Assembly: GCA_946405805.1 (NCBI GenBank)
Contig: CAMJIL010000005.1
Location: 1-64,000 of the forward strand
Length of the DNA: 64,000 nt
Origin: an uncultured Prevotellaceae bacterium
GTDB taxonomy: Bacteria; Bacteroidota; Bacteroidia; Bacteroidales; Bacteroidaceae
Reading direction: 5' to 3'
The notes under the pieces are model-generated. The model was not told the DNA's origin. It searched no databases and saw only the letters and a list, made by a program, of their open reading frames with translations. Numbering within the stretch: position 1 is the stretch's first letter; the number at the start of each line of letters is the position of its first letter. Below, in pieces: positions 775 to 57,411 of the stretch. A program made the position numbers and the translations under genes.

Positions 775-862
775 CCTCATTCCTCATTGCTCACTCCTAA
801 TTGTTTTTTTGCATCTTTCGTTATTTATTTGTATCTTTGTGCCCGGAAATACAATTACGATT

Positions 863-3800
863 ATGAAGACAGGTCTTTCGTTCCTTTTTGGTGCTTTTAT
901 TTCCTGCGTTGCCGTTTGTGCAGTGTCGGCGCAGGAGGTGCGCACGCTGCATTACCATCCCGATGGACGCGACATCGTGTGCCATGACGGAGAGACGCGC
1001 TATACCCGTGCGCTCTACGGCGGCTATACGGATTTCCGCCTGGAGACGAGCGACCGCCCCGTCTTTGCCACCTACCGCAAACGCAGCCACCGCAACATCC
1101 GTTTTTCGCTGACCACAGGCGGAAAGACCACTCCGCTGGAACAGACAACTCATTGCGAGGCACGCTATAATGCCGGCAAACGCGTGTATATCCTGACGGA
1201 CGACAGCTGGAAGAAAGGGCGGCTCACTATTACGGCCCTTGCGCAGCCCGACAGCGAGTCGGCCATCTGGCAGTTTGAGGCACAGGGCCTGCCCGAGGAT
1301 GCCCAGATAGGGTGTGTGGTCTGTGATGTGTTGCGACCAAAATTCCAACGTGCCGGCGACATGAATTCCGACCCCGCAGATTCTTTCGACCCGTCGCCTG
1401 CCGAGACCAACAAGCTGACGGCACAATGGGCCGTAGGAAAGAAAAAGACGTTTGCCGTACTGGACTGCGATTCCGAAGGCAAGTATTCGCTCTCAATACC
1501 CTCAGCCTCTGATGGCCAGCGCTTGTTTGAAAAAGTGTGGAAGCACCACGAATGGCTTGCAAACAGCATTGTCTTCAACACGCCCGACCCGTACATCAAC
1601 ACCCTCGGCGGTGCCCTGATGGCTGCCAGCGACGGCGCGTGGGACGGCGAGACATGGCTGCACGGCGCTGTGGTATGGCGTATGCAGCTGAACGGCTGGC
1701 GAGCAGGATACCTTGGCGATGTACTCGGAATGCCCGAACGTGCAAAGAGCCATTTCTCCGCCTATGCCAACAGCCAGGTGACCGACGTGGAACCGACCAT
1801 TGCCCATCCTTCGCCCGACCCCGAGAAAGGCCTCTCGCGGGCACGAAAAGAGTGGGGCACGCAGATGTATTCCAACGGCTATATCTGCCGCTATCCTAAC
1901 CGCACGGATGTCATGCACCACTACGACATGAACCTCAACTTCATCGACGAACTCCTGTGGCATTTTGAGTATGACGCCGACACCGCCTTCATGCGAAAAA
2001 TGTGGCCCGTGCTCACACGCCATCTGGCATGGGAGAAGCGTAACTTCGACCCCGACGATGACGGACTGTATGATGCCTATTGCTGCATCTGGGCGAGTGA
2101 TGCCCTGTATTACAATGGTGGTGCCGTGACCCATTCGTCAGCCTATAACTATCGCGGCTTTTCCCTTGCGGCACGCATAGCGGAAATCCTCGGCGAAGAC
2201 CCCACGTATTTCAGGCAGGAAGCCGCCAAGACCTTGAAGGCCATGAACCGGCGCCTGTGGCTGAAAGACCGCGGCCATTGGGCAGAATACCAGGACCTGA
2301 TGGGGCTGAAACGCACCCACGACCATGCCGCCCTGTGGAGCATCTACACCCCAATCGACTGCGGCGCCTGCACACCGGAACAAGCCTTCCAGGCAACACA
2401 GTACGTCGATTCCTGCATCCCCCACATTCCGGTAAACTATCACCTGTCACCTGTCACCTGTCAACTATCAACTATCAACTGTCACCCCGACTCCCGCCCT
2501 TTAAGGGAGGGCTGGGGAGGGTCTTCCCTCAGCACTTCCGACTGGCTGCCCTACGACTGGAGCATCAACAACGTGGCAGCAGAGGAGGTGATGCACATGG
2601 CACTGGCATACTTTCAGGCTGGACGCAACGACGAGGGGTTCCGACTCATCAAGGCAAACATCATGGATCAGGCCTATCTTGGCGGCAGCCCGGGCAACTT
2701 CGGGCAGATAAGCTATTACGACAAGGCCCGTGGGGAACTATACCGTGACTTCTCAGATAACTGCGGCATCTCGGCCCGCACCTTCATACAAGGTCTTTAC
2801 GGCATCATTCCCAATGCCCTGCAGGGACGCTGCTACATCCGCCCGGGATTTCCTGACGAATGGAATGAAGCCAGCATCGAGACTCCTTATTTCAAGTATT
2901 CCTTCCGTCGTGAGGGGGATAAGGATGTTTATGACGTGGAGCAGAATTTTGCGCAACCCTTGCAGATAGTATTGCGCCGGAATACCGGTGACGGCGGATA
3001 TGTCGAAACCCTTGGCAGCAGCGAGAAACACCAGACCTTTGTCGTGCCTCGCGTAAAGCAAAAGCCAGCCCCCAAACCGCTGATTACGGCCACTCATGCT
3101 GACGACCTCGACTGGGGAAACCGCTTCGACGATGTGCAGACCGACCGCCTCGAGACTGTCAATATGGATGCACAGTGGAACAGCAGCGTCAGCGACATTT
3201 TTACGAATTCATACCTCACGCCACGTCCGCCATATACCACCCTCCAGATACCTGTCCACGGCATCGGCGAGTGGTGCCATCCGGAGGCGATGGCTGATAT
3301 CGACGACAGCATGTTGCGCCAGAAGGCTGGTGCACAAGGAGTGCTCATGACCGACACCCTCGGCATCCCGTTCCGATATGCTGCGAAGGGACATAACATC
3401 GCCTACACCTCGCTGTGGGACAACTATCCCGATGCCGTCACCATGCCATTGTCAGGCAAGGCCTCTCACGCCTACCTCCTGATGGCCGGCTCTACCAATC
3501 ACATGCAGAGCCACATCGACAACGGCCTCGTCATAGTACGCTATACCGACAACACCGCTGACACCCTGCACTTGCATAATCCCCATAACTGGTGCCCCAT
3601 AGAGCAGGACTATTACGAAGACGGCCTGGCCTTCCATGCAGCACAGCCGCGTCCTTACCGCATCGACTTCGCCACAGCCCGCGTCACACGCCAGCTGATG
3701 CCGATGGGTGAACACTACGGCCGCCCCGCCAAAGGTGGTGTGGCAGGAAGCTATAACGACCGCTCGTTAGAGAAAGGCGCCGGCATCATCCTCGATATGC

Positions 3801-3898
3801 CTCTTGATGGTGAGAAGACACTGAAAAACCTCACCGTCCGCACCCTCTCAAACGACGTCGTGATAGGTCTGATGGCGGTCACGTTGCAGCGAAAATAA
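863..3898 (+). CDS. Secreted glycoside-hydrolase-like protein (DUF4450-like, six-hairpin-type)
   Basis: 1029-aa ORF; start at ATG 863 gives a signal peptide MKTGLSFLFGAFISCVAVCAVSAQE; contains an in-frame repeat insertion around 2433-2530. Confidence 0.65.
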   Translation: MKTGLSFLFGAFISCVAVCAVSAQEVRTLHYHPDGRDIVCHDGETRYTRALYGGYTDFRLETSDRPVFATYRKRSHRNIRFSLTTGGKTTPLEQTTHCEARYNAGKRVYILTDDSWKKGRLTITALAQPDSESAIWQFEAQGLPEDAQIGCVVCDVLRPKFQRAGDMNSDPADSFDPSPAETNKLTAQWAVGKKKTFAVLDCDSEGKYSLSIPSASDGQRLFEKVWKHHEWLANSIVFNTPDPYINTLGGALMAASDGAWDGETWLHGAVVWRMQLNGWRAGYLGDVLGMPERAKSHFSAYANSQVTDVEPTIAHPSPDPEKGLSRARKEWGTQMYSNGYICRYPNRTDVMHHYDMNLNFIDELLWHFEYDADTAFMRKMWPVLTRHLAWEKRNFDPDDDGLYDAYCCIWASDALYYNGGAVTHSSAYNYRGFSLAARIAEILGEDPTYFRQEAAKTLKAMNRRLWLKDRGHWAEYQDLMGLKRTHDHAALWSIYTPIDCGACTPEQAFQATQYVDSCIPHIPVNYHLSPVTCQLSTINCHPDSRPLREGWGGSSLSTSDWLPYDWSINNVAAEEVMHMALAYFQAGRNDEGFRLIKANIMDQAYLGGSPGNFGQISYYDKARGELYRDFSDNCGISARTFIQGLYGIIPNALQGRCYIRPGFPDEWNEASIETPYFKYSFRREGDKDVYDVEQNFAQPLQIVLRRNTGDGGYVETLGSSEKHQTFVVPRVKQKPAPKPLITATHADDLDWGNRFDDVQTDRLETVNMDAQWNSSVSDIFTNSYLTPRPPYTTLQIPVHGIGEWCHPEAMADIDDSMLRQKAGAQGVLMTDTLGIPFRYAAKGHNIAYTSLWDNYPDAVTMPLSGKASHAYLLMAGSTNHMQSHIDNGLVIVRYTDNTADTLHLHNPHNWCPIEQDYYEDGLAFHAAQPRPYRIDFATARVTRQLMPMGEHYGRPAKGGVAGSYNDRSLEKGAGIILDMPLDGEKTLKNLTVRTLSNDVVIGLMAVTLQRK
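2437..2483. repeat. Heptanucleotide repeat in frame inside a CDS
   Basis: cacctgt cacctgt cacctgt caactat caactat caactgt, translated as YHLSPVTCQLSTINC. Confidence 0.85.
2484..2525. repeat. GC-rich REP-like palindrome inside a CDS
   Basis: cccgactcccgccctttaagggagggctggggaggg; similar elements at 16010 and 24993. Confidence 0.6.
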
Positions 3899-23374: not shown

Positions 23375-24832
23375 ATGCTCAATTTCAAACTCATATACAA
23401 AATTCTCGGCTCACTCCTCTTCCTGGAGTCCCTGTTTATGCTGATATGCCTCGTGATATCACTGTCATATCAGGAGGATGATGTCTTCTCCTTTATCATC
23501 TCTATCCTCGTGACACAGATGGGAGCGTATATCCTGCGATACCTGGGACGTGATGCCAATAATAACATGTCGCGAAAAGACTCCTTCCTCGTCGTCACCC
23601 TGACGTGGGCCGTCTATAGCCTCTTTGGTACGCTGCCGTATATGGTGGGAGGATATATCACTGACTTTACCAATGCCTATTTTGAGGCCATGTCGGGCTT
23701 TACTACGACAGGTGCCAGTATTCTCGATGATGTGGAGCATCTGCCGCATGGCATACTGTTCTGGCGTACCTTCTCGCAGTGGATTGGGGCGTTGGGAATA
23801 GTGTTCTTCACTATTGCCATCCTGCCATCGATGGTGGGAGGGTCTGTGAAGGTCTTCTCGTTAGAGACTACAGGACCTATCAAGACGAAGCTCCATCCGC
23901 GTCTATCAACGTCTGCAAAGACGTTGTGGGTGGTGTTTATAGTGTTGACGGTGTCATGCTTCCTTATATTCCATGTCCTTGGCATGAACTGGTTCGATGC
24001 CATCAATTATTCCATGACCACCATTGCCACGGGAGGGTTCTCGCCCCATAATGATAGCGTGGCACACTTCCATTCCCCTGCGATGGAATATACATCCACC
24101 CTGTTCTGTTTCCTGTCCGGTATCAATTTCATACTGCTGTACAGGCTGTTCATGAAGCGTGATTTGAGTGGGATGATCAATAACTCCGAGATGAAGATTT
24201 ACTGTAGTTTGACAGTTGTCTTTACTGCATTTATTATGGTCATGCTCATGCACTTCAATGACTATGGCATTGAGAGAGCATTCAGGTGTTCGCTCTATCA
24301 GGTCGTGTCGTTCCTGACCACGACCGGGTTGTTTAATGACGATGCCGCCAAGTGGCCGCATGTCACGTGGGTGGTGCTCGCCATCTGTATGTTCTGTGGC
24401 GCGTGCGCCGGCAGTACGTCGGGAGGATTTAAGTGCGTCAGGGTTACCATGCTGTTTAAGGTGATGCTCAATGAGTTTAAGCAGATACTGCACCCCAAGG
24501 CCGTGCTGCCGCTGAAGATAGGCGAGACCAATGTCAATATGCAGCAGAGAGTAACGTTGATGGCGTTTTTGACAGCCTATTGTTTTCTCTGTGTGTTCTG
24601 TGCTACGGTGATGATAGTCGCTGGGGTGGATATCACCAATTCCATTACGATTACTATTTCGACCCTTAGTAATGTTGGTCCCACGTTGGGTACCGAGATT
24701 GGGCCCACCATGTCGTGGAATGATTTGCCCATATTTGCAAAGTGGATATGCTCCATCCTGATGTTGATGGGCCGTCTTGAGATATTCTCTGTGCTCATCA
24801 TATTTACCCCACTTTTCTGGAAAGATAGATGA
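23375..24832 (+). CDS. trkH: Trk potassium uptake system membrane protein TrkH
   Basis: MSGFTTTGASIL, TIATGGFSPH, GACAGSTSGGFKCVR, SNVGPTLG. Confidence 0.93.
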   Translation: MLNFKLIYKILGSLLFLESLFMLICLVISLSYQEDDVFSFIISILVTQMGAYILRYLGRDANNNMSRKDSFLVVTLTWAVYSLFGTLPYMVGGYITDFTNAYFEAMSGFTTTGASILDDVEHLPHGILFWRTFSQWIGALGIVFFTIAILPSMVGGSVKVFSLETTGPIKTKLHPRLSTSAKTLWVVFIVLTVSCFLIFHVLGMNWFDAINYSMTTIATGGFSPHNDSVAHFHSPAMEYTSTLFCFLSGINFILLYRLFMKRDLSGMINNSEMKIYCSLTVVFTAFIMVMLMHFNDYGIERAFRCSLYQVVSFLTTTGLFNDDAAKWPHVTWVVLAICMFCGACAGSTSGGFKCVRVTMLFKVMLNEFKQILHPKAVLPLKIGETNVNMQQRVTLMAFLTAYCFLCVFCATVMIVAGVDITNSITITISTLSNVGPTLGTEIGPTMSWNDLPIFAKWICSILMLMGRLEIFSVLIIFTPLFWKDR

Positions 24833-25965
24833 GCCTGCTGCTGACGCTTCTTTTTACCATTGTCTCTTACAACTGCGAAAACCTTTTCGACTGCCGCCAC
24901 GACAGCCTGAAAAATGATTACGAATTCCTCCCCCCCGCCTCCGCGAACGCGAACGCTTTCGCTTCCGCTTCCGCGAACGAAAACGAAAACGAAAAGGCCC
25001 CTCCCCGGCCCTCCCTTAAAGGGCGGGGGAAACAGTTGAAGGATGAAAACCAAAACGAAAACCCTTCGACAGGCTCAGGGCGAGGCGAAAACCTTAACCT
25101 TAACCTTGGTGCTTCTCGTAACTGGAATTTTGGGCGGTATTGGAGGAAATTAAATAACATTGGGCGTGTGATTCAGCAGTGTGGAAGTGCGACCTCTCCT
25201 GGAACTCTTCCGGATATAGTAGCATTGTTGGAGGTAGAGAATGATTCTACTCTTTTTATGCTGACAAGGCGCAGCTTGCTAAAGGGTGCGGGCTACAAAT
25301 ATGTGATGACTAATTCTCTTGATGCGCGTGGCATTGATGTGGCAATGATATACAATCCTCTGACATTCCGATTGGAAAAGAGTTATTCTATCAGGCCGGA
25401 ACTTAAACGGTCGAAGTCGGACACGGTGGGCATCAAGACTCGCGACATATTGTATGCGAAGGGCGTCATGCGTGCGCGCGATACATTACATATATTTGTT
25501 GTGCATGCTCCGAGTCGCAGGAATGGTAAGTCTGCTACGGAGGGGTATCGTCTGCAGGTGGAGCAGCGGATGATGGAGTCGGTGGATTCTATCAGGAATA
25601 TCAATCCCAACGCGAAAATAGTCTTGATGGGTGATTTTAATGATTATTCGAATGACAGGGCTTTGAAGGATATTGTGAGCAGGGGATTTGTGGAGACTTC
25701 CAAGGGCATAAGGGGGCTGAACTACGAGAAGACAGGGGTGTCTGGAACGTATAAATATCAGGGGGCGTGGAACAGTCTTGACCATATTTTCCTGTCCACA
25801 GCGGTGCAGCAGCAGGTGGAGCGGTGTTTCATATATGATGCTGCGTGGCTGTTGGAGGAGGATAATCAGGGTGGTTATAAGCCTTTCAGAACGTATTTGG
25901 GTCCGAGGTATCATGATGGGGTGAGTGATCATCTGCCGATAGTGTTGCAGCTGAAGTTGGAATGA
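24829..25965 (+). CDS. Endonuclease/exonuclease/phosphatase family protein carrying an in-frame repeat insertion
   Basis: VSYNCENLFD, LLEVEND, MGDFNDYSND, DHLPI; insertion between EFLP and RNWNFGRYW; start overlaps trkH stop (ATGA). Confidence 0.85.
   Translation: MSLLLTLLFTIVSYNCENLFDCRHDSLKNDYEFLPPASANANAFASASANENENEKAPPRPSLKGRGKQLKDENQNENPSTGSGRGENLNLNLGASRNWNFGRYWRKLNNIGRVIQQCGSATSPGTLPDIVALLEVENDSTLFMLTRRSLLKGAGYKYVMTNSLDARGIDVAMIYNPLTFRLEKSYSIRPELKRSKSDTVGIKTRDILYAKGVMRARDTLHIFVVHAPSRRNGKSATEGYRLQVEQRMMESVDSIRNINPNAKIVLMGDFNDYSNDRALKDIVSRGFVETSKGIRGLNYEKTGVSGTYKYQGAWNSLDHIFLSTAVQQQVERCFIYDAAWLLEEDNQGGYKPFRTYLGPRYHDGVSDHLPIVLQLKLE
24934..25118. repeat. Composite in-CDS repeat: 6-mer tract, REP-like palindrome, cgaaaac tract, CCTTCGACAGGCTCAGGG element
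   Basis: cgaacgcgaacgctttcgcttccg...; ccctccccggccctcccttaaagggcggggg; cccttcgacaggctcagggcgagg; ccttaaccttaacctt. Confidence 0.8.
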
Positions 25966-26076: not shown

Positions 26077-26205
26077 ATGTTGCAAGGCTTGTACTGCCTG
26101 CTGGCAAACAAGTTTTCCGACAGTCAGCCCAACCCTCACAACAGGCCTAAGGCCTACGAACTGCTAAAGGCAAAGAACCCCGGCCTGAGCTCAACGCCGG
26201 CCTAA
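26077..26205 (+). CDS. Possible small ORF (42 aa) ending inside the first unit of the 49-bp array
   Basis: MLQGLYCLLANKFSDSQPNPHNRPKAYELLKAKNPGLSSTPA*; frame is open further upstream without ATG. Confidence 0.3.
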   Translation: MLQGLYCLLANKFSDSQPNPHNRPKAYELLKAKNPGLSSTPA

Positions 26206-26438
26206 AAAACCAAATTTTGTTATACTGAGTCAAGATGGCTCAACGCCGGCCTAAAAAACCAAATTTTGTTATACTGAGTCAAGAAGGCTCAACGCCGGCC
26301 TAAAAGACCAAATTTTGTGTTAGACTGGATCAAGAAGGCTCAACGCAGGCCTGAAAAACCAAATTTTGTTATACTGAGTCAAGATGGTTCAACGCCGGCC
26401 TAAAAAACCAAATTTTGTGTTAGACTGACTCAAAAACC
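26189..26438. repeat. Tandem direct-repeat array, about 5 copies of a 49-51 bp unit
   Basis: Unit gctcaacgccggcctaaaaaaccaaattttgttatactgagtcaagatg starting at 26189, 26238, 26287, 26338, 26387. Confidence 0.92.
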
Positions 26439-26677: not shown

Positions 26678-27376
26678 ATGAAACCAGACAAACGTAAAGT
26701 AGATCCTAAAAGCCAGTATCGCATCAATGAGGAGATCAGGGTGCGCGAGGTTAGAGTAGTGGGTGACAATGGTGCCACTGTGATGTCAACCAGAGAGGCA
26801 TTAGAATTAGCACAGCAGAGGGGGGAAGATCTCGTAGAGATAAGCCCAAATGCGGAACCACCAGTATGTCGTATCATTGACTATTCAAAGTTCCTTTATC
26901 AGCAGAAGAAGAAGGCAAAGGAAATAAAGTCACGACAGGTTAAGGTCGATATCAAGGAAATCCGTTTCGGCCCTCAGACTGACGACCACGACTATAACTT
27001 CAAGCTGAAGCATGCCAAGGAGTTCCTGGAAGAGGGAAACAAGGTGAGAGCCTATGTATTTTTCCGTGGCCGCTCTATATTGTTCAAGGAACAGGGTGAG
27101 GTATTGCTGTTGAGATTTGCCAATGACTTGGAAGAGTATGGCAAGGTGGAGCAGATGCCGAAGTTGGAAGGCAAGAAGATGTTCCTGTTCATGGCACCTA
27201 AGAAGGCTGGTGTAGCGAAGAAGTCTCAGCAGAAGGTTGATCGTGAAAGACGTGAAGCAGAAGCGGCGAGTGCGGCAGCCAATGCGCCTCAAGAGGTAAA
27301 GGAGAGCACTGGTGATGGTCTTGCAGCAAATGCGAAGGGACTGGAAGCGCTTGCAGCGTTGAAGTTTGACGAATAA
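26678..27376 (+). CDS. infC: Translation initiation factor IF-3
   Basis: [60 protein letters not shown]. Confidence 0.95.
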
Positions 27377-30616: not shown

Positions 30617-30655
30617 ATAGAATGCTTCAAAAATTATGAGGCATTCTATTTTTTC
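30617..30655. terminator. Bidirectional terminator between tRNA-Ser and the NRPS operon
   Basis: atagaatgc ... gcattctat with T-rich tails on both strands. Confidence 0.75.
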
Positions 30656-33600
30656 TATTCTGTTCTTTCGTTGTTTGATTTAGACCAGAAAGTGAAGCTG
30701 TCAATGATTCCTTTTATGAATTTCAAGTTTTCCGGATTGGTTATTGCCTGCATGTGTGTATAGTCAACGAAGGTAATAGGCATATCGGGTTGTGATTTTT
30801 TCCAGTTGGCTATATTGTGAGGGAACATGGCAATACCTTGTTCACGGGTCTGACCTGGTGAATCATCGAATTTGCTGCACAAAATCAGATGTACCGGACC
30901 AGAATAATAACGCTGGACGCAAGAGCCGGATACTGCGTGCAGGATTTGACTTCTGATTTTTACTAACTCTTCGGAAACGCCAGGCTCTACGACGACGGTG
31001 CCTATCTCTTCACCATATTCTGAACGGCACGCGTAACCATCAATGTTGATGACAGGAATAGTGCCAATGCCTTGCTCCTGGAGTTCCACAGCCAGACGAA
31101 GCGCCATATCGCCACCGAGACAAAATCCAGTTGCCAGTATAGGCATGGTTCGGTCTTTGAGAATAGGACGAAGTATCCGTACATATTCTGCTATCAGTGC
31201 ATCCACATTTTTGGGGAAGTCGGGACGCAGTGAACATAATTCGCTTACTGACTCTATCACAAGGATGGTATATGTGTCTTTGAGCGTATGATAGAAGTCC
31301 ATGTATATCGTTTCGAAATAAGGTGCGCCAGCACAAATGATGAGCAGGGGTTTGTTAGGATTGTCTGGGGTATAGAAATATACAACCCTGTTGTCAATCT
31401 GCTCCTGTGTCAGCGGTTCCTTATTGGTCTCCATAAAGGATGCCAGATTGTGGATGGTCTTGCAATGATAGACATCTGAGGCGTGTAGCTGATAGCCACG
31501 TGTCTGCATCTGACTGACATATTCAAGGACTTGCAGCGAACTCATTCCAATGTCTTCCATCAGATTGGCATTGACATCGATGGTACTGGCTTCGATGCCC
31601 AGAATAGTGGAGATGGCATGGCGACAGCGGCATTCTACCTCCGGCAGTTCTTCGTTGTCTGCTTTTTCTGTAACACACAATTGCGGCTCGGGCAGGCGCT
31701 TACGGTCTATCTTTCCGTTGTGGGTGAGAGGGAATGATTTTGAGAATGTCCAATAGGCAGGTGTCATATAGGCAGGCAGTTTGTCGGCCAGCCATGTACG
31801 AAGACTGGTACCATCCAACTGACTATCGGTTGTTTCTACATGAGCCACCAACTGTTTGGCATCGCCTATCTGACGAATCTCAGCAATACACTGTCGCACA
31901 TCGGGGTGGGAGAGTAGTGTACTCTCGATATCAGCCAGTTCAATACGATATCCGCGCAGCTTTATTTGAAAATCCTTACGTCCCATGAAGTATAGCAGGC
32001 CATCAGCTTTTCTGCATACCAAATCGCCCGTAGCATAGAGGCGTGTATTGATGCCTTGCTCCTTATCAGACTGGCTGACGAATGGGTTATTGATAAAGCT
32101 CTTGCTGTTGAGCTCCGGACGGTTGTGATAGCCTGTGGCCAGTTGCAGACCGCCAAGATACAACTCACCTGTGACACCGTCGGGCAAAAGGTTGTGATCA
32201 TCATCAAGCACATAACATGTTACACCAGGCAATGGTTTGCCAATACAATTAGATGCCGACACCTTACTGCCAGCATAGGTGTGGCTGGTGCTGCATACAG
32301 TACTCTCCGTAGGTCCGTAGCCATTGATGAAGGTAATATTGCTATAACGGTTGATAAGTTCCTGGCTGGGTGACTCACCACCTACGAGGACCTTCTTCAG
32401 CGATGTCGTCGGGTCTTTATGGCAGGAATGTAGGAATGCTGGTGGAATGCAGGCCCACGTAATCTTCTCGTCCTCCATAAACTGGAACAGCTGTTCTGCA
32501 TCTTTTTTCATTGCTTCTGGTGCCGTTACCAGTGTGGCACCGCTCAGCAAGGTGCAGAAGATATCAATGACGGAAGCATCGAAGAGATATGTTGAGAACT
32601 GGATGACGCGATCGTCTGCAGAAGGACGATAGATATTCGGAGAACCTATCGTTACCATTGAAACAACGCTACTATGAGGTACGATAACACCCTTCGGCTT
32701 TCCTGTGGTGCCTGACGTGTAAATCATGTAGGCAGGGGAGGACAATTGACAATTGACAGTTGACAATTGACAGGTGGAATGTCTAAGGTCAAAGGTCAAA
32801 GGTCTAAGGCTTTCGTTATCGTTATCGTTATCGTTTTCGTTATACAGATATATACGAACATCTGGTACGAGTCCCTCAACATCTTTCAGCAGATTTCGTG
32901 TTGTCACGAGGCGTTGCATACCGCTGTCAATGATTATATCCTTCAGGCGCTCCTGAGGGTATGTGTCATTAAGGGGCACATAGAAACAGCCGGCTTTTAT
33001 GATACCCATTATTGTAGCCAGGGCCTGTGACGAACGGCCGGAATATATGCCTACGGCACCCTGAGGGAGTCCGTCGGACAACAGAACAGAGGCAACATTA
33101 TCCGAAATCTTGTCGAGTTGCTCATAAGTATAGCTGTGACTCTCATCCTTGAGGGCCACATGGTCGGGATAGAGCTCCACCTGTTTTCGGAATACGTCAA
33201 CTATAGTTTCTGTTGGTAATGAGAGCGGAGAAACAGTACTCTGTTCCACCATATGCTGATAAGCAGCCTTATCTAACATGGACAGCTTACGAGCAGGTAT
33301 ATTCTCAGCCTCAACAATCTGCTGAATAAGTGCAAGATAGCAACGGCTCAGCAGTTCAATCTGCTCTGTCTCTGCCATTGCGCTGCGATAGAGCCAGCGG
33401 CACTGCAACTTTTTCTCGTCGGTATCGACAGTCAGCATCAGGGGTGCCAACTGATAAGGCAGATCAATTCCCATACGTGTCTCGTAGCGCATTTCCTCAA
33501 GAGTGAAATTCACTGGAGGCAGTTTTACCATCGCATACGAATGAGCTGTCGCTTCACGGATATCGTCAATGGTGTGTTTGCAGAGTTGGTCGAAAGTCAT

Positions 33601-36243
33601 GTCGAGCAAAGACTCTTCGAACTTCATCGGGTATGGATGAACGAAATAGCCGAGCATATTGAGACTTTCGGAAGAGGTCCTGCCGGACGTAGGATAGCCA
33701 AGCGTGAACTTCTGCTGACGCGAAACACGATACAGCACTAGCATCAATGCTGATGACAGGAAGGAGAAGAGAGTAATCTGATGCTGGGAACAATACTTGT
33801 AAATTGCCTCTGACAGGGAGTCATCCACCTGCTTCAAGACACATCCGGTAGTATAGTCATTGTTGTCGCTGTCTTCAATAATTCCAGGCAGTTTCAGTTC
33901 TGGAACATCTTCCAGATAGGCATCCCAATACTTCGTGCTGTCAGCACCTAATGGCCCCTGCTCCTTATTATACGTATCATATACATAATTGGCAAAGTTG
34001 CCTGCAATATCCAAACCCTTCTGTGCATAAAGGACATAGAGTTGCAGCCTCACCTCGTCAAGCGACCAACCATCGGAAATGAGGTGATGCATATAGACGG
34101 CACACACCCATTTGCCATTAGGGAAATGATATAGTTCTACGAAGTAAAGTGGTCCCTTCTCCAAGTCGTACGGACGAGAGAGACGTTCCGTTACCAAAGC
34201 CTTAAGTTCCTCGTCGTCAGCAACGGAGAATTCAGGGATGTCTTCCTGTACCTTAATGTCATTCACCTTCATAAAAGGTTTTCCGAAAGCATCAGTATGA
34301 AAAGTCATACGGAAGGCATCATGGGTCTGTAGCAACCTGTTCCATGCATTGAGCAAAGTGTCTTTCTTAAATGACTTCCCGAATGGTATCAGTTCCACCA
34401 GATTATATGCCAGTGAGGCCTGCTGATTCAGCTTACAGTGAACATAGACGTTGGAGAGGTGGGAAGGGAGTTGGCAGTTGACAATTGATAATTGACAATT
34501 GACAATTGATAAGTTATCGTTTTCGTTATCGTTTTCATTGATGGCTGAAGCCAGTTGGCTCAATGTCAGATTATGATATATATCATTAACCGTCAGTTGG
34601 GTGTTAAATTGCTTATTGATGCGTTGCATCAGGTAGATGATAGAAATGGAATCACCACCCAGTTCGATAAAGTTGCTGTCTGACCTGATGCTTTCCATAT
34701 TGCCCAGCAAGTCATGCCAGATGGCAGCAATCTGTTCCTCTGTCTCGCCAGAAACCTCGTCTGTCTGCTGTTCTGAAGGCAGCATGTCAGCGAGGGCTTT
34801 GAAATCTATTTTCCCGTTAATATTCTTTGGTATATCAGACACCTCTATTATACGAGTAGGTATCATGTAAGACGGCAGTACTCCCTTGAGCTCTTGTTTT
34901 ATCTGTTCTATATCGAGAGGAGTGATATCGGCTTTTACAAAGGCACGCAGATATCTCTGTTCACCCTGCGTAGCCACCTCTATAGCAGCTGCTTCTACCT
35001 GGGAGCATTGCTCAATAGCAGTTTTTATCTCGCCCAATTCTATGCGAAAACCATGAAGCTTTACCTGATTGTCTTTGCGTCCGCAGCAGATGAAATGCCC
35101 GTTAGGCAACTGATAAGCTATGTCACCGCTGGCATACAGTATGGGGTCAGAAGCACCTTCTTCTGCAAAAGGATTAGCAATAAACTTCTGCTTATTCAAT
35201 TCTTCCTTGTTAAGATAACCATCTGTCACCTGAATACCTCCAATAAACAATTCGCCTTTCTCACCTTGCGGCACCTGACGATATTGTTCATCCAAAATAT
35301 AACACGTTGTACCTTCCAGAGGCAGACCGATATCATTGGCAGAATCCTCTTTTCCCAATATGTTGGCAGTAATAAAGACGGTTGCCTCAGTCGGTCCGTA
35401 TGCATTGACGATAGTGCTTGTATTCTGCCATTTTCTTACTAAGGGTTCTGGGCAAGGCTCTCCTCCAAATACCAGATATTTCAAATCCGGGAGAGGGCGA
35501 TAGGGAATCAAGGAAAGATATGTAGGAGTTGTGCTAAACGTTGTAACATGTTGTTCTTCCAATATCTCTGCTATACGTTCAGGATTTGCCTTTTCTTCTT
35601 CGCTGAAGAAATAGACTGCTGTTCCAGTCATCAGCGGACAGAATATTTCCCAAACGGAATAATCAAACGCAATGCTGGCAATACAGGTCTCCAACGTGTT
35701 CTCTACGTGAGAATAGAGGGCTTTATGGCGGACTTCTACCAGATTACGCAGTCCGGCATGAGTAATTGGTATGCCTTTGGGTTTGCCCGTTGTGCCAGAG
35801 GTGTAGATGACGTAGCCAAGGGAGGATGGTTGGCAGGTGACAGTTGATAGTTGACAGGTGACAGTTGAAATGTTGGAATCAATAGTAAGCCACTGGACCT
35901 GTGGATATTCTGAGACAGGGGCATCACAATCTGTGAGTATCAGGTTCAGCTTACAATCATCTATGATATACCCTATACGCTCTGAAGAGTATTTAGGGTC
36001 CATTGGGACGTAAGCAAATCCTGCCTTCCAGATGCCTATCATCATCGGAATAGTATATTGGGTACGCGATGAATATATACCGACAAAAGGGCTTTTCGCT
36101 GGAGTATGTCCACTTTGCAGAATCAACTGTGCTATACAATCAGAGATTCTGTCCAACTCACTATATGAAAAAGACAGACTTCCGAATTTAAGAGCCGTTT
36201 TCTCTGAATTCTGTTTTACGATATTCTGAAAAATACTTATCAT
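30655..36243 (-). CDS. Dimodular nonribosomal peptide synthetase, apparent order A-T-C-A-T-TE
   Basis: YTSGTTGKPKG twice; carrier motifs ELGGDSISI and EDIGMSSLQVL; condensation motif MHHLISDGWS; thioesterase ATGFCLGGDMAL. Confidence 0.93.
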   Translation of the reverse strand: MISIFQNIVKQNSEKTALKFGSLSFSYSELDRISDCIAQLILQSGHTPAKSPFVGIYSSRTQYTIPMMIGIWKAGFAYVPMDPKYSSERIGYIIDDCKLNLILTDCDAPVSEYPQVQWLTIDSNISTVTCQLSTVTCQPSSLGYVIYTSGTTGKPKGIPITHAGLRNLVEVRHKALYSHVENTLETCIASIAFDYSVWEIFCPLMTGTAVYFFSEEEKANPERIAEILEEQHVTTFSTTPTYLSLIPYRPLPDLKYLVFGGEPCPEPLVRKWQNTSTIVNAYGPTEATVFITANILGKEDSANDIGLPLEGTTCYILDEQYRQVPQGEKGELFIGGIQVTDGYLNKEELNKQKFIANPFAEEGASDPILYASGDIAYQLPNGHFICCGRKDNQVKLHGFRIELGEIKTAIEQCSQVEAAAIEVATQGEQRYLRAFVKADITPLDIEQIKQELKGVLPSYMIPTRIIEVSDIPKNINGKIDFKALADMLPSEQQTDEVSGETEEQIAAIWHDLLGNMESIRSDSNFIELGGDSISIIYLMQRINKQFNTQLTVNDIYHNLTLSQLASAINENDNENDNLSIVNCQLSIVNCQLPSHLSNVYVHCKLNQQASLAYNLVELIPFGKSFKKDTLLNAWNRLLQTHDAFRMTFHTDAFGKPFMKVNDIKVQEDIPEFSVADDEELKALVTERLSRPYDLEKGPLYFVELYHFPNGKWVCAVYMHHLISDGWSLDEVRLQLYVLYAQKGLDIAGNFANYVYDTYNKEQGPLGADSTKYWDAYLEDVPELKLPGIIEDSDNNDYTTGCVLKQVDDSLSEAIYKYCSQHQITLFSFLSSALMLVLYRVSRQQKFTLGYPTSGRTSSESLNMLGYFVHPYPMKFEESLLDMTFDQLCKHTIDDIREATAHSYAMVKLPPVNFTLEEMRYETRMGIDLPYQLAPLMLTVDTDEKKLQCRWLYRSAMAETEQIELLSRCYLALIQQIVEAENIPARKLSMLDKAAYQHMVEQSTVSPLSLPTETIVDVFRKQVELYPDHVALKDESHSYTYEQLDKISDNVASVLLSDGLPQGAVGIYSGRSSQALATIMGIIKAGCFYVPLNDTYPQERLKDIIIDSGMQRLVTTRNLLKDVEGLVPDVRIYLYNENDNDNDNESLRPLTFDLRHSTCQLSTVNCQLSSPAYMIYTSGTTGKPKGVIVPHSSVVSMVTIGSPNIYRPSADDRVIQFSTYLFDASVIDIFCTLLSGATLVTAPEAMKKDAEQLFQFMEDEKITWACIPPAFLHSCHKDPTTSLKKVLVGGESPSQELINRYSNITFINGYGPTESTVCSTSHTYAGSKVSASNCIGKPLPGVTCYVLDDDHNLLPDGVTGELYLGGLQLATGYHNRPELNSKSFINNPFVSQSDKEQGINTRLYATGDLVCRKADGLLYFMGRKDFQIKLRGYRIELADIESTLLSHPDVRQCIAEIRQIGDAKQLVAHVETTDSQLDGTSLRTWLADKLPAYMTPAYWTFSKSFPLTHNGKIDRKRLPEPQLCVTEKADNEELPEVECRCRHAISTILGIEASTIDVNANLMEDIGMSSLQVLEYVSQMQTRGYQLHASDVYHCKTIHNLASFMETNKEPLTQEQIDNRVVYFYTPDNPNKPLLIICAGAPYFETIYMDFYHTLKDTYTILVIESVSELCSLRPDFPKNVDALIAEYVRILRPILKDRTMPILATGFCLGGDMALRLAVELQEQGIGTIPVINIDGYACRSEYGEEIGTVVVEPGVSEELVKIRSQILHAVSGSCVQRYYSGPVHLILCSKFDDSPGQTREQGIAMFPHNIANWKKSQPDMPITFVDYTHMQAITNPENLKFIKGIIDSFTFWSKSNNERTE
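32738..32857. repeat. In-CDS repeats in NRPS A2 just before core motif A3
   Basis: (gacaatt)n, (caaaggt/ctaaggt)n and (cgttat)n; peptide NENDNDNDNESLRPLTFDLRHSTCQLSTVNCQLSS. Confidence 0.85.
34466..34540. repeat. In-CDS repeats in the NRPS T1-C linker
   Basis: (gacaatt/gataatt)n plus (cgttat/cgtttt)n; peptide NENDNENDNLSIVNCQLSIVNCQL. Confidence 0.85.
35832..35873. repeat. In-CDS heptanucleotide repeat in NRPS A1 just before core motif A3
   Basis: caggtga cagttga tagttga caggtga cagttga; peptide STVTCQLSTVTCQ. Confidence 0.85.
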
Positions 36244-46746: not shown

Positions 46747-48849
46747 TTACTCGTTTCCCGACATGATGTTAGAAATGACCACCATATCACCTACATTAAC
46801 CTCACCGTCTTGGTTCACATCAGCAGCATCCTTTGAGACTAACACATCACCGGCCATGAAGTTACTTACCGATACAAGGTCACCTACGTTAACCTCGCCG
46901 TCACCATTAGCATCACCGCGAAGAAAATCTGGCTCGCTGCCGACATATTCCCGCCAATCATTTTCACTTACAGCATAATATGGAAACCAGTATTTAGCTT
47001 TTGCTGCAGCCACCTGAGTGGTTGTCATTACGTTGCCTTCGTTCTCGAAGTATAATACACCCACATGGTTCTCAAAATCGAATGTCGGCAGATCCTCCAC
47101 AAGCTTGTTCATCGCAACACCCTTTAACTGGTTGCAATAGATACTAAGAATTGACAAGTTAGGACATCCCGACACATCAAGCGAGGTAAGCTGGTTATTG
47201 TTGCATGATAGCCAGTACAGCGCTGTTTTATTCGACACATCAAGCGACGTAAGTTGGTTATATTCGCATTCTAACATTTGCAATGCCGTACATTTTGACA
47301 CATCGAGCGAAGTAAGTTGGTTATATTTGCATACTAATGATTTTAGTGCCGTATTATTCGACAAATCAAGCGATGTAAGCAGGTTGCCGAAACAATTCAA
47401 GCTTATCAGCGCTTTATTCTGTGACAAATCAAGCGAAGTAAACATGTTACCATAGCAATACAAACTTTCCAACTTCGTATTTTTCGATACATCGAGCGAA
47501 GTAAGGTTGCCACCTGAAATATCAATAGATCTTAGTGCCGTAAAGAACTCTAAGCCTTGCATATTCTGAATATTATATTCGGGAGGATACAAATTCATAT
47601 TTTTCACACAAGCAATCTCGGCATCAGTAAGAACACCATCCTTGCCATAGAACTGCGACAGCACCCAGTTGCGGAAATTCTCGTCAGGGAAATTTGTTTC
47701 GTTGATGGCTATAATCTCTATTACAGGCTCATCACCGATGACAACGATATTGCCGAAATCGCTCCAAGGTTCCGTAGCTTTGTATGCTTCCAAAGCAGAA
47801 GCAGGCACATAGAGAGTTGCAGGAACATTATTAAAAACATCACTTCCTGTTGAAGGAACAGATGTTGCCTCGCAGGTGATAGATGTCAAACCAATGCAGT
47901 CACGAAAAGCATTGTCTCCTATTGACGTCACGCTGTTGGGGATGGTAACTGATGTCAGATCGGTATGACCAGAGAAAGCACTGCTTCCTATTGATTTCAC
48001 ACCGTTGGGGATTACTGTGTTCCCACAACCCATGATCAGATTGTTGGTTGCTGTTTCTATTATAGCATTACAATTATCACGGGAGTCATATTCTGGATTT
48101 CCGCTTTCTACTGATATTGATGTCAGGCCATAGCAGCCATAGAAAGCATTGCCACCTATTGACGTCACGCTATTGCCAATTGTCACTGATGTAAGACCGG
48201 AGCAATTAGAGAAAGCACAGTATCCAATTGATGTCACACTGTTGGGGATTTCAATGGACGCCAGGCTAGAGCAATTAGAGAAAGTGTAGTTTCCTATTGA
48301 TGTAATGCTGTTGGGAATCGTCACCGATGTAAGGCCGGAACAGTCATTGAAAGCATTTGTTCCTATAAATGTCACGCTGTTGGGGATTGTCACCGATGTC
48401 AGGCTAGAACAGCCAGCGAAAGCATTGTTTCCTATTGACGTCACACTATTGCCAATTGTCACTGATGTAAGGGCTTTGCAGTAATAGAAAGCATCTCTCC
48501 CTATTGATGTCACGCTGTTGGGGATTATCACCGATGTCAGGCTGGAGCAGCCAGGAAAAGCTTCGTTCCCAATCAAAGTAACGCTGTTGGGAATTGTCAC
48601 TGATGTAAGGTTTCTGCAATAAAAGAAAGCCCTATTACCTATTGATGTCACGCTGCAGCTAACATCATTGTAGGTTACGGTTTCGGGAATTGTAACGCTA
48701 CCAGTGTATTTAGTATCACCCGATGTCACTGTCGCTGTTTTGGCAGATGTATCGAAATTGTAATATATGCCATCAATCTGAGCATCATACGCACTTGACG
48801 TCAATGTTGACAGCATCAAAGCAAATAGTAATGATAGTTTTTTAGTCAT
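46747..48849 (-). CDS. BspA-type LRR protein with additional classical LRRs and dockerin type I domain
   Basis: SVTIPNSVTSIGxxAFxxCxxLT repeats; LTSLDVSxNTAL repeats; C-term GDANGDGEVNVGDLVSVSNFMAG...ADVNQDGEVNVGDMVVISNIMSGNE. Confidence 0.9.
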   Translation of the reverse strand: MTKKLSLLFALMLSTLTSSAYDAQIDGIYYNFDTSAKTATVTSGDTKYTGSVTIPETVTYNDVSCSVTSIGNRAFFYCRNLTSVTIPNSVTLIGNEAFPGCSSLTSVIIPNSVTSIGRDAFYYCKALTSVTIGNSVTSIGNNAFAGCSSLTSVTIPNSVTFIGTNAFNDCSGLTSVTIPNSITSIGNYTFSNCSSLASIEIPNSVTSIGYCAFSNCSGLTSVTIGNSVTSIGGNAFYGCYGLTSISVESGNPEYDSRDNCNAIIETATNNLIMGCGNTVIPNGVKSIGSSAFSGHTDLTSVTIPNSVTSIGDNAFRDCIGLTSITCEATSVPSTGSDVFNNVPATLYVPASALEAYKATEPWSDFGNIVVIGDEPVIEIIAINETNFPDENFRNWVLSQFYGKDGVLTDAEIACVKNMNLYPPEYNIQNMQGLEFFTALRSIDISGGNLTSLDVSKNTKLESLYCYGNMFTSLDLSQNKALISLNCFGNLLTSLDLSNNTALKSLVCKYNQLTSLDVSKCTALQMLECEYNQLTSLDVSNKTALYWLSCNNNQLTSLDVSGCPNLSILSIYCNQLKGVAMNKLVEDLPTFDFENHVGVLYFENEGNVMTTTQVAAAKAKYWFPYYAVSENDWREYVGSEPDFLRGDANGDGEVNVGDLVSVSNFMAGDVLVSKDAADVNQDGEVNVGDMVVISNIMSGNE

Positions 48850-49363: not shown

Positions 49364-50905
49364 TTACTCGTTTCCCGACATGATATTTGAGATAACCACC
49401 ATATCACCTACATTAACCTCACCATCTTCGTTGACGTCACCACGGAGGCCGCTTGCACCACCGCTGATGTTAATCTCCAGGGTGGCAATATCGGAATTGA
49501 TATAACCCGCCTTTGTGGCATAGACGGTGACCTTGTAGGTCGTAGGAAGACTAATTTCATCACTATTGCCATCACATGAGGACATGATATGACTTATAAA
49601 CTCAACACCCTCAGTCTCGCATGAGAACTGCAACTTACCATCAACATAGCTGATGGTAGGCATTGCACACTTTGGTGTTTCGGGTATTTCTCCCGACAAA
49701 ATCTTAAAAGTTCCAAATCCACTCCAAGGCGCCCTAGCCTTGTACGTCGTCATAGATGTCTCTGGAACATATAGCGTAGCGTATTCTACGAATGCGTCTC
49801 TGAATACATCAGTACCCGTTGAAGGCACATTCTCTGCATAGCAATAAACATCTGACAGTTCTGAGCAATTCACAAAAGTATAGCTACCTATAGATTTTAC
49901 GCCACTACCAATTATGACGGTTTTTAATTTGTTACAACCGATAAAAACTTGATTTCCTATGGAGGTAACACTATTTGGGATAACAATGGACGTTAAGCTT
50001 GTACAACCAGAGAAAGCGCCACCATAAATATTATCACCACCTATGGATGTAACACTTTGGGGGATGGTGATTGAAGTTAAACTAGAGCAACTTGAAAAGG
50101 CTCCATTACTAATAGAGGAAATACTCTCAGGAATTGTGATTGAGGTGAGAGCACGACAACCGGAGAAAGCACCCTTGCCAATATAACTTACACTATTGGG
50201 AATATTGATTGAAGTAAAACCACAACCAGAGAAAGCTTGGTTCCCAATTGAGTACACTGTGTTTGGGATGGTGACATCTGTCAACCCTGAGCATCCTAAG
50301 AATGCAGCTTCTTCAATACTATTTATATTGTCGGGAATTGTAATAGAAGTCAAACCGGTACAACCGTAGAACACACTATTTCCAATGGATGACCAACTAC
50401 TGGGGATTGTAATGGAAGTCAAGCCAGTGCACTCTCTAAAAGCAGCCTCGCCAATGGATGTCGCGCTTTCGGGGATGGCAATGGAAGTCAAGCCGCCGCA
50501 GCCCATAAAAGCATATCCGTCAATGGATGTCACACCCTCAGGGATGTTTACAGAAGTCATGCCGCTACATCCATAAAAAGCGCCATAGCCGATGGATTTC
50601 ACACTGTTAGGAATAGTGACTGAGGTTATGCCGGAACATCCTCTAAAAGCTCCCCCTAAATACGTGCCACCATTATGAGTAACATTACCGGCAATTGATG
50701 TCACTTTATAATCAACACCCTCAAAACTTACTTTTTCCGGTATAACCACATTACCAGAATAACTACTATTAAAATTTCGAGTAACTTCTGCTACATTTCC
50801 TTTTTTTATAAGGTTGTAACAAATGCCATCAATCTCAACTTCGTCTGCACTTGCCGTCAGGGTTGACAGCATCAAAGTTAATAGTAATGTTATTTTTTTT
50901 GTCAT
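49364..50905 (-). CDS. BspA-type LRR protein with single-EF-hand (half) dockerin tail
   Basis: SITIPxSVTSIGxxAFxGCxxLT repeats; C-term LRGDVNEDGEVNVGDMVVISNIMSGNE. Confidence 0.88.
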   Translation of the reverse strand: MTKKITLLLTLMLSTLTASADEVEIDGICYNLIKKGNVAEVTRNFNSSYSGNVVIPEKVSFEGVDYKVTSIAGNVTHNGGTYLGGAFRGCSGITSVTIPNSVKSIGYGAFYGCSGMTSVNIPEGVTSIDGYAFMGCGGLTSIAIPESATSIGEAAFRECTGLTSITIPSSWSSIGNSVFYGCTGLTSITIPDNINSIEEAAFLGCSGLTDVTIPNTVYSIGNQAFSGCGFTSINIPNSVSYIGKGAFSGCRALTSITIPESISSISNGAFSSCSSLTSITIPQSVTSIGGDNIYGGAFSGCTSLTSIVIPNSVTSIGNQVFIGCNKLKTVIIGSGVKSIGSYTFVNCSELSDVYCYAENVPSTGTDVFRDAFVEYATLYVPETSMTTYKARAPWSGFGTFKILSGEIPETPKCAMPTISYVDGKLQFSCETEGVEFISHIMSSCDGNSDEISLPTTYKVTVYATKAGYINSDIATLEINISGGASGLRGDVNEDGEVNVGDMVVISNIMSGNE

Positions 50906-56781: not shown

Positions 56782-57411
56782 ATGGCATTAAAAGTTAAAG
56801 CAAAAGAACGTGAGTTCAAGGTCGGCAAGTATGCCGGCGAGTATCGTTACGTGATGGCGCCTGAGTTGTACTCAGCACTTTCACAAGACAAGGTAATCAG
56901 GGAAGCTGCTCTTCGCAGTGGGGTCTCTGAAGGAGTTATGAAGGCTTGCTGGGATGCAGCCGGAGAAGTTATCAAGGCGTGGTTGCCTGAGGGCCACAGT
57001 ATTCCTATCCCAGGCCTCGGCAGTGCCCGTTTTGGTTTGAGTGCAAAGAGTGTTGCTGACGTCAATGACGTCAAGGCAGGCTTGATCCGCACACGTCGCA
57101 TCGTCTTCACACCAGCTGTTGAGTTGAAGCAGGAACTGAAGGAGACTTCTGTTGTCATCACCTGCTACGACCGCACTGGCAAAGAGGTTAAGCGCGTCAC
57201 CAGTGACGACGACGGCACTGTAGAGGAGCCGGACAACACCACCGAAACTGGTGAGAACGATGGTACCACTAACGGTGGTAACGAAAACCCTTCGACAGGC
57301 TCAGGGCAGGACGAAAACCAAAACCAAAACCAAGGTGGTAGCCAGAACCAGGGTGGTTCACAGGGTGGTAACACCGACCCTAATCCAGACGGTAGTGGCG
57401 ATGAAGGATAA
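56782..57411 (+). CDS. HU-like (HU-HIG type) DNA-binding protein with low-complexity tail
   Basis: MALKVKAKEREFKVGKYAGEYRYVMAPEL...; tail NQNQNQGGSQNQGGSQGGNTDPNPDGSGDEG shared with 68..673. Confidence 0.75.
   Translation: MALKVKAKEREFKVGKYAGEYRYVMAPELYSALSQDKVIREAALRSGVSEGVMKACWDAAGEVIKAWLPEGHSIPIPGLGSARFGLSAKSVADVNDVKAGLIRTRRIVFTPAVELKQELKETSVVITCYDRTGKEVKRVTSDDDGTVEEPDNTTETGENDGTTNGGNENPSTGSGQDENQNQNQGGSQNQGGSQGGNTDPNPDGSGDEG
57278..57340. repeat. CCTTCGACAGGCTCAGGG element plus (caaaac)n tract in the HU-like CDS
   Basis: aacgaaaacccttcgacaggctcagggcaggacgaaaaccaaaaccaaaaccaagg. Confidence 0.75.

Follow-up and report, generated by a model that had tools for sequence, protein, structure and literature searches.

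How does an intact gene come to hold several families of repeat DNA at one point of its reading frame? The question arises from an endonuclease/exonuclease/phosphatase (EEP) gene of an uncultured Prevotellaceae bacterium, a Prevotella that probably lives in the ruminant gut. A preliminary description of the window, by which we mean the whole 64,000-nucleotide stretch of DNA analysed here, had reported that simple-repeat tracts, a REP-like palindrome and a further element nest in this gene while its frame stays open.

Data

The source assembly is a draft of 60 contigs, 73% complete and probably metagenomic like those of its relatives. Array statistics come from a 461-kb sample of this genome and pattern counts from the whole assembly (1.93 Mb). 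The relatives are uncultured Prevotella or Prevotellaceae assemblies, several of them derived from sheep or rumen, and the genus sample comprised 60 genomes, 58 of which gave an EEP match. The evidence base is thus one draft genome, with genes called by ORF length, a structure modelled on nine sequences and several counts taken by inspection.

Results

The EEP protein matches PF19580 from residue 95 on in a profile search (E 1.3e-58), and its 198.9 bits against a curated cut-off of 27 bits place it in that family. Across nine aligned homologs N15, E137, H226, G268-D269-F270-N271 and S366-D367-H368 are invariant, and we take these motif residues, from knowledge of the family, to have a catalytic role. 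Solved structures searched by sequence with the protein gave no match; the best Foldseek match of the predicted model is 3mpr, an EEP protein of Bacteroides thetaiotaomicron, and the fold search also returned Bacteroides EEP and TDP2-like proteins. The gene has a dN/dS of about 0.1 and, judged from sequence comparison, its core is under purifying selection. Given the full reading frame, the invariant motifs that are kept and this low dN/dS, the gene is not a pseudogene, a possibility that the preliminary description had raised. An incomplete draft of probably metagenomic origin is where a misassembly might be expected, but synteny is intact on both sides and the same class of insert is found in the independent assemblies of relatives, so that we regard a pseudogene or an assembly artefact as extremely improbable.

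Within the protein the insert splits EFLP from SRNWxxGRYW (Table 1); its boundaries were set against the closest ortholog, and their placement is uncertain by a few codons. In the predicted model residues 22-95 have pLDDT values below 50 and the EEP core is mostly around 85-95; the model was built on a 9-row alignment in which no other row holds the insert, which partly explains its low pLDDT. The insert is probably a surface loop that is disordered. An Rfam search of the insert returned nothing at E up to 1, and its RNA is predicted to fold more stably than shuffled sequences (z -2.7), as expected for a palindrome, from which we draw no function. That the frame is open is not as remarkable as it may seem, given that 2 of the 6 frames of the insert contain no stop, as do 23 of 30 frames of the intergenic hexamer arrays of this genome (77%; for intergenic heptamer arrays 110 of 450, 24%).

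Table 1 Features of the window discussed in the text, with positions counted from its first nucleotide.
Feature	Position	Strand	Remarks
EEP gene, PF19580 (Exo_endo_phos_3)	24829-25965	+	open ORF, 378 aa
Composite in-frame insert	about 24934-25107	+	174 nt / 58 aa, residues 36-93 of 378; lacking in the syntenic ortholog and in all sampled genus orthologs
6-mer tract	24943-24995	+	units GCGAAC / CTTCCG / AACGAA; translated ANANAFASASANENENEK
REP-like unit GGCCCCTCCCCGG-CCCTCCCTTAAAGGGCGGGGGAA	24996-25031	+	about 36 nt; palindrome core 25009-25028
Putative decayed heptamer-like stretch cagttgaaggatga	25033-25046	+	3' of the palindrome; assignment inferred
6-mer tract GAAAACCAAAACGAAAACC	25045-25063	+	shares 14-mers with other loci
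Second palindrome-like element cccttcgacaggctcaggg	25062-25080	+	translated N-P-S-T-G-S-G
(AACCTT)3 tract	25090-25107	+	translated NLNLNL
Second small in-frame insertion in the EEP gene	25408-25428	+	RSKSDTV; from comparison with relatives
DUF4450-containing protein	809-3898	+	near 2435-2511: in-frame heptamer tract and REP-like palindrome NYHLSPVTCQLSTINCHPDSRPLREGWGG
NRPS gene (condensation, AMP-binding, PP-binding)	30655-36243	-	heptamer/hexamer coding tracts 32741-32843, 34471-34536 and 35825-35868, in three loops/linkers

A direct EFLP-to-WxxGRYW junction had been predicted for homologs, and this is what comparison gave. In about 50 genus orthologs the part equivalent to residues 2-37 directly adjoins the part from residue 96 onward, and loop 1 holds no insert in two further relatives (L069, L070). 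The closest ortholog (L067, genome G101), on a syntenic contig and 91% identical in the EEP core, has an empty loop 1 reading EFCEDSSRNW. Proteins compared on that contig are mostly 92-99% identical, and the EEP gene is alone among the block genes compared in having indels of more than 33 nt between G101 and this genome. The 58-residue insert was seen in this genome alone among those sampled, and no homolog examined carries this insert in a form free of nucleotide repeats. A search of 399 genomes of the genus gave no further insert outside the clade among the best-matching EEP orthologs examined.

Within the rumen/sheep Prevotella clade, repeat inserts that are in frame but different from one another lie in the EEP loops of 4 of 6 genomes. 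In the loop of the insert, L068 holds NENQNQNEN plus (SSRSSN)n, hexamers without palindromes. L066 has PTITPTITHTITH a few residues upstream; in a second loop it has (NAAQSGTT)n, and L067 has (GAMLSQQRG)n there. Such loops, in a gene with more indels than any other in the syntenic block, fit a contingency locus, in which a hypervariable functional loop would tune the binding of a partner or substrate or escape recognition, and change at this hot spot could be diversifying rather than neutral. However, hexamer units make on/off frame switching impossible, and the same kinds of tract with the same turnover occur in the LigA linker, NRPS linkers, a TPR protein and intergenic DNA, which indicates a genome-wide mutational process. 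We therefore consider a functional, contingency-type loop improbable.

The extent of this process is seen from the arrays of the genome (461-kb sample), which were placed by simple ORF calling, so that single assignments may err. Heptamer-type arrays (n = 159) divide into 74 intergenic, 59 at gene edges and 26 in CDS, and hexamer-type arrays (n = 35) into 5, 8 and 22. In small samples, most clade members have a heptamer density of about 15-35 per 100 kb, with G102 at 6. Of the 10 other genus genomes sampled, 9 have a low density. The exception, G009, is a more distant genome of the genus with 45 heptamers per 100 kb in a 20-kb sample (L120); going by these sequence samples, the heptamer-rich trait may have more than one origin, or it may be patchy. 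When the same intergenic site is compared between the window and G101, the tract is sometimes conserved and often built from another unit. In the NRPS linkers, five species have unlike repeat units at two shared positions between conserved flanks. The linker of LigA from the BRCT domain to the terminal QLSLF motif is likewise variable and often made of hexamer repeats (relatives L145-L149, longest in G101); in the source genome's own LigA (L001, C4 near 59297) it holds the second element, NPSTGSG. The EEP insert is, on these comparisons, one example of a genome-wide and clade-wide process.

Longer repeat units are also present in the window. An intergenic array of a 49-nt unit (26189-26433, about 5 copies, fewer in the syntenic G101 contig) lies upstream of a gene at 26678, apparently that of translation initiation factor IF-3, and two genes at 46747-48849 and 49364-50905 (minus strand) encode proteins with leucine-rich-type repeats of 63-69 nt (21-23 residues).

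The EEP insert is a mosaic of repeat families found genome-wide: 6-mer tracts, the REP-like unit and cccttcgacaggctcaggg. Its 14-mers bear this out, as 35 of them recur at about 24 other sites in 461 kb of the same genome, whereas 320 CDS tiles of equal length average 2.4, so that the repeat content of the insert is more than chance would give; the top-scoring tiles are themselves other repeat-bearing CDS sites. The central claim of the preliminary description, several repeat families at one point in an intact gene, is therefore borne out by the ORF, by the positions of the pieces and by their recurrence in the genome. Its layout holds as well in that the pieces lie where they had been placed, while the extent is refined to 174 nt and cagttgaaggatga, which lies between the palindrome and the next 6-mer tract, resembles a heptamer tract in decay. 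We tentatively read it as a heptamer remnant because the REP-like family carries heptamer tracts on its 3' side.

The second element, cccttcgacaggctcaggg, has 4 exact copies in the genome and none in the controls. All 4 lie in CDS and all 4 are read in the same frame (NPSTGSG), though 5 of 6 frames are open; two of them are paralogous tails, which leaves about 3 independent cases and makes the frame statistics weak. The shared frame could reflect selection for a particular peptide, or copying between coding tracts. Proteins of HU-HIG type (window 56782-57411, plus strand, and L004) have C-terminal tails with ENPSTGSG and ENQNQNQ repeats.

One alternative for the insert as a whole is a single MITE-like mobile cassette that transposed in one piece into the EEP loop. 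In its favour, palindromic elements of Rickettsia enter reading frames as single units (PMC10969869), the REP-like family is sharply bounded on its 5' side, its net insertion at the TPR gene measures 36 nt, and 28 nt of the EEP insert, AACGAAAACCCTTCGACAGGCTCAGGGC, are also found in the HU-HIG tail at window 57280. Yet parts of the insert are found singly at other sites, the palindrome has other copies that come without these hexamer tracts or the second element, and the same loop of L068 has hexamers without palindromes. Inspection of the EEP insert junctions revealed no evident target-site duplication. Taken together, transposition of one cassette is highly unlikely. A GCCTCC/GCTTCT echo (AS...AS) at the EEP junctions, considered as a candidate duplication, is weak and likely due to chance.

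A search of 1.93 Mb for the palindrome pattern of the REP-like family, with up to 3 mismatches allowed, gave 26 places per strand, while its reversed control gave 1 and 0. The 5' end of the family, RGACCCTCCCCnn-CCCTCCCTTAAAGGGCGGGAGA, is sharp. A clear heptamer tract lies beside the 3' side of 8 of 17 copies and beside the 5' side of none (0/17). The 36-nt unit is exactly 12 codons long and open in 4 of 6 frames. About a quarter of the placed copies are intragenic (5 of about 17-20) and most copies are intergenic; palindromes lie in frame in the unrelated genes for EEP, a DUF4450 protein, a U32 peptidase (two copies) and a TPR protein.

The last two genes allow the order of arrival to be read. 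At the TPR gene the site is empty in G100 and G104, holds a heptamer tract in G101, G102 and G103, and holds the tract plus a 36-nt REP-like unit in the source genome; heptamer number is equal by eye and automatic alignment splits the gap otherwise, while the net difference is exactly 36 nt. The U32-peptidase gene has the tract in G101, G102 and G103 and REP-like units only in the source genome and G101. From these two patterns, and from the hexamers without palindromes in the EEP loop of L068, it follows that tracts came before palindromes in the cases compared.

Near-exact REP-like copies number about 18 here and 3 in a close relative (G098, whose coordinates match those of G101), and all 3 of the latter sit in stretches matching palindrome-bearing stretches of the source genome. 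These counts and the shared location suggest that the family recently multiplied here or was lost in the relative. The uneven copy numbers would also suit a classical REP moved by a RAYT (Y1) transposase, an alternative that concerns only the arrival of the palindromic layer, as would palindromes that are short, GC-rich, dispersed and mostly intergenic. A profile search for Y1_Tnp (PF01797) in the 73%-complete assembly had no match, however, while 5 of 14 control genomes were positive, and we think RAYT-driven movement unlikely. The unit has a sharp 5' end, yet a clear duplication is absent at the TPR and EEP junctions. A more speculative view, which we entertain with considerable doubt, is that of a selfish 36-nt unit that homes to simple-repeat tracts in permissive coding loops, has recently multiplied and is spreading through the proteome without breaking genes.

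Discussion

We propose, with a probability of roughly three in four, that the EEP insert is a layered build-up of the genome's dispersed repeats in a length-tolerant loop, filtered by selection for an open frame. Tracts would first arise and turn over at permissive sites through slippage, exchange with similar tracts or both, hexamers in coding DNA and heptamers mostly between genes; it is the turnover of tracts between relatives that points to slippage or exchange. The tracts or adjoining DNA would then receive REP-like units, each about 36 nt or 12 codons long, and cccttcgacaggctcaggg. Selection would purge versions that are out of frame or contain stops, because the enzyme is needed, and open, hydrophilic and probably disordered versions would stay. 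The enzyme would thus be produced with a floppy 58-residue loop, probably without a function of its own. Several observations stand behind this proposal: the ortholog junctions are empty, the repeat families are shared, relatives have independent inserts of their own, tracts precede REP-like units at the TPR gene, and the core is under purifying selection. From them we infer that inserts are filtered passively and that this one is probably neutral for the protein.

If layered build-up is correct, many proteins of this lineage gain new segments from repeat DNA, and the origin of disordered segments from repeat DNA becomes directly testable with strain collections. For annotators, differences in loop length in these species can derive from repeats.

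Several known systems resemble parts of what is described here. The Bacteroides EEP structures 3mpr and 3g6s have the fold of the core of the window protein; compared with the Bacteroides EEP proteins, orthologs of the window gene join the flanks directly, and the 58-residue insert is particular to this genome among those sampled. REP elements are widespread, and REP/RAYT elements include GTAG- and CGTC-tagged families (PMC3733652). The units studied here are likewise small dispersed palindromes, but no such tags are evident in them by inspection, a Y1 transposase is undetected in the 73%-complete assembly and about a quarter of the placed copies are intragenic.

Among long simple sequence repeats, which are tandem arrays of units of 5-11 nt, heptamers have been described as the commonest long unit, mostly intergenic, with 3n units in coding DNA (Mrazek et al. 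2007, via PMC4679880). The present genome agrees, with heptamers commonest and CDS shares of 26/159 for heptamer and 22/35 for hexamer arrays. Genomes rich in heptamers occur in several phyla (PMC4679880 and the work cited in it). TAACTGA repeats are found in Beggiatoaceae, Cyanobacteria and five Bacteroidetes (PMC4679880); unlike these, the tracts here have many units, the unit is swapped between close relatives and palindromes are located at the tracts. A literature search that covered few subscription journals found nothing specific on heptamer or in-frame repeat insertions in Prevotella.

The closest parallel is with the RPEs of Rickettsia, from which in-frame palindromes are best known, summarised as ten families with a unit size of about 150 bp (Ogata et al. 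2000, 2002, in PMC10969869). As with RPEs, dispersed palindromes lie in frame within functional genes for unrelated proteins, whose products they make longer. In contrast to RPEs, the unit here is about 36 nt and is a single layer of a mosaic, situated within or next to simple-repeat tracts that were there before it; given the difference in unit size we would not file it as an RPE, and the likeness we see is one of mode. Here the repeats lengthen proteins in a free-living Prevotella lineage, and what is new is repeat layering with a readable order in a free-living gut lineage.
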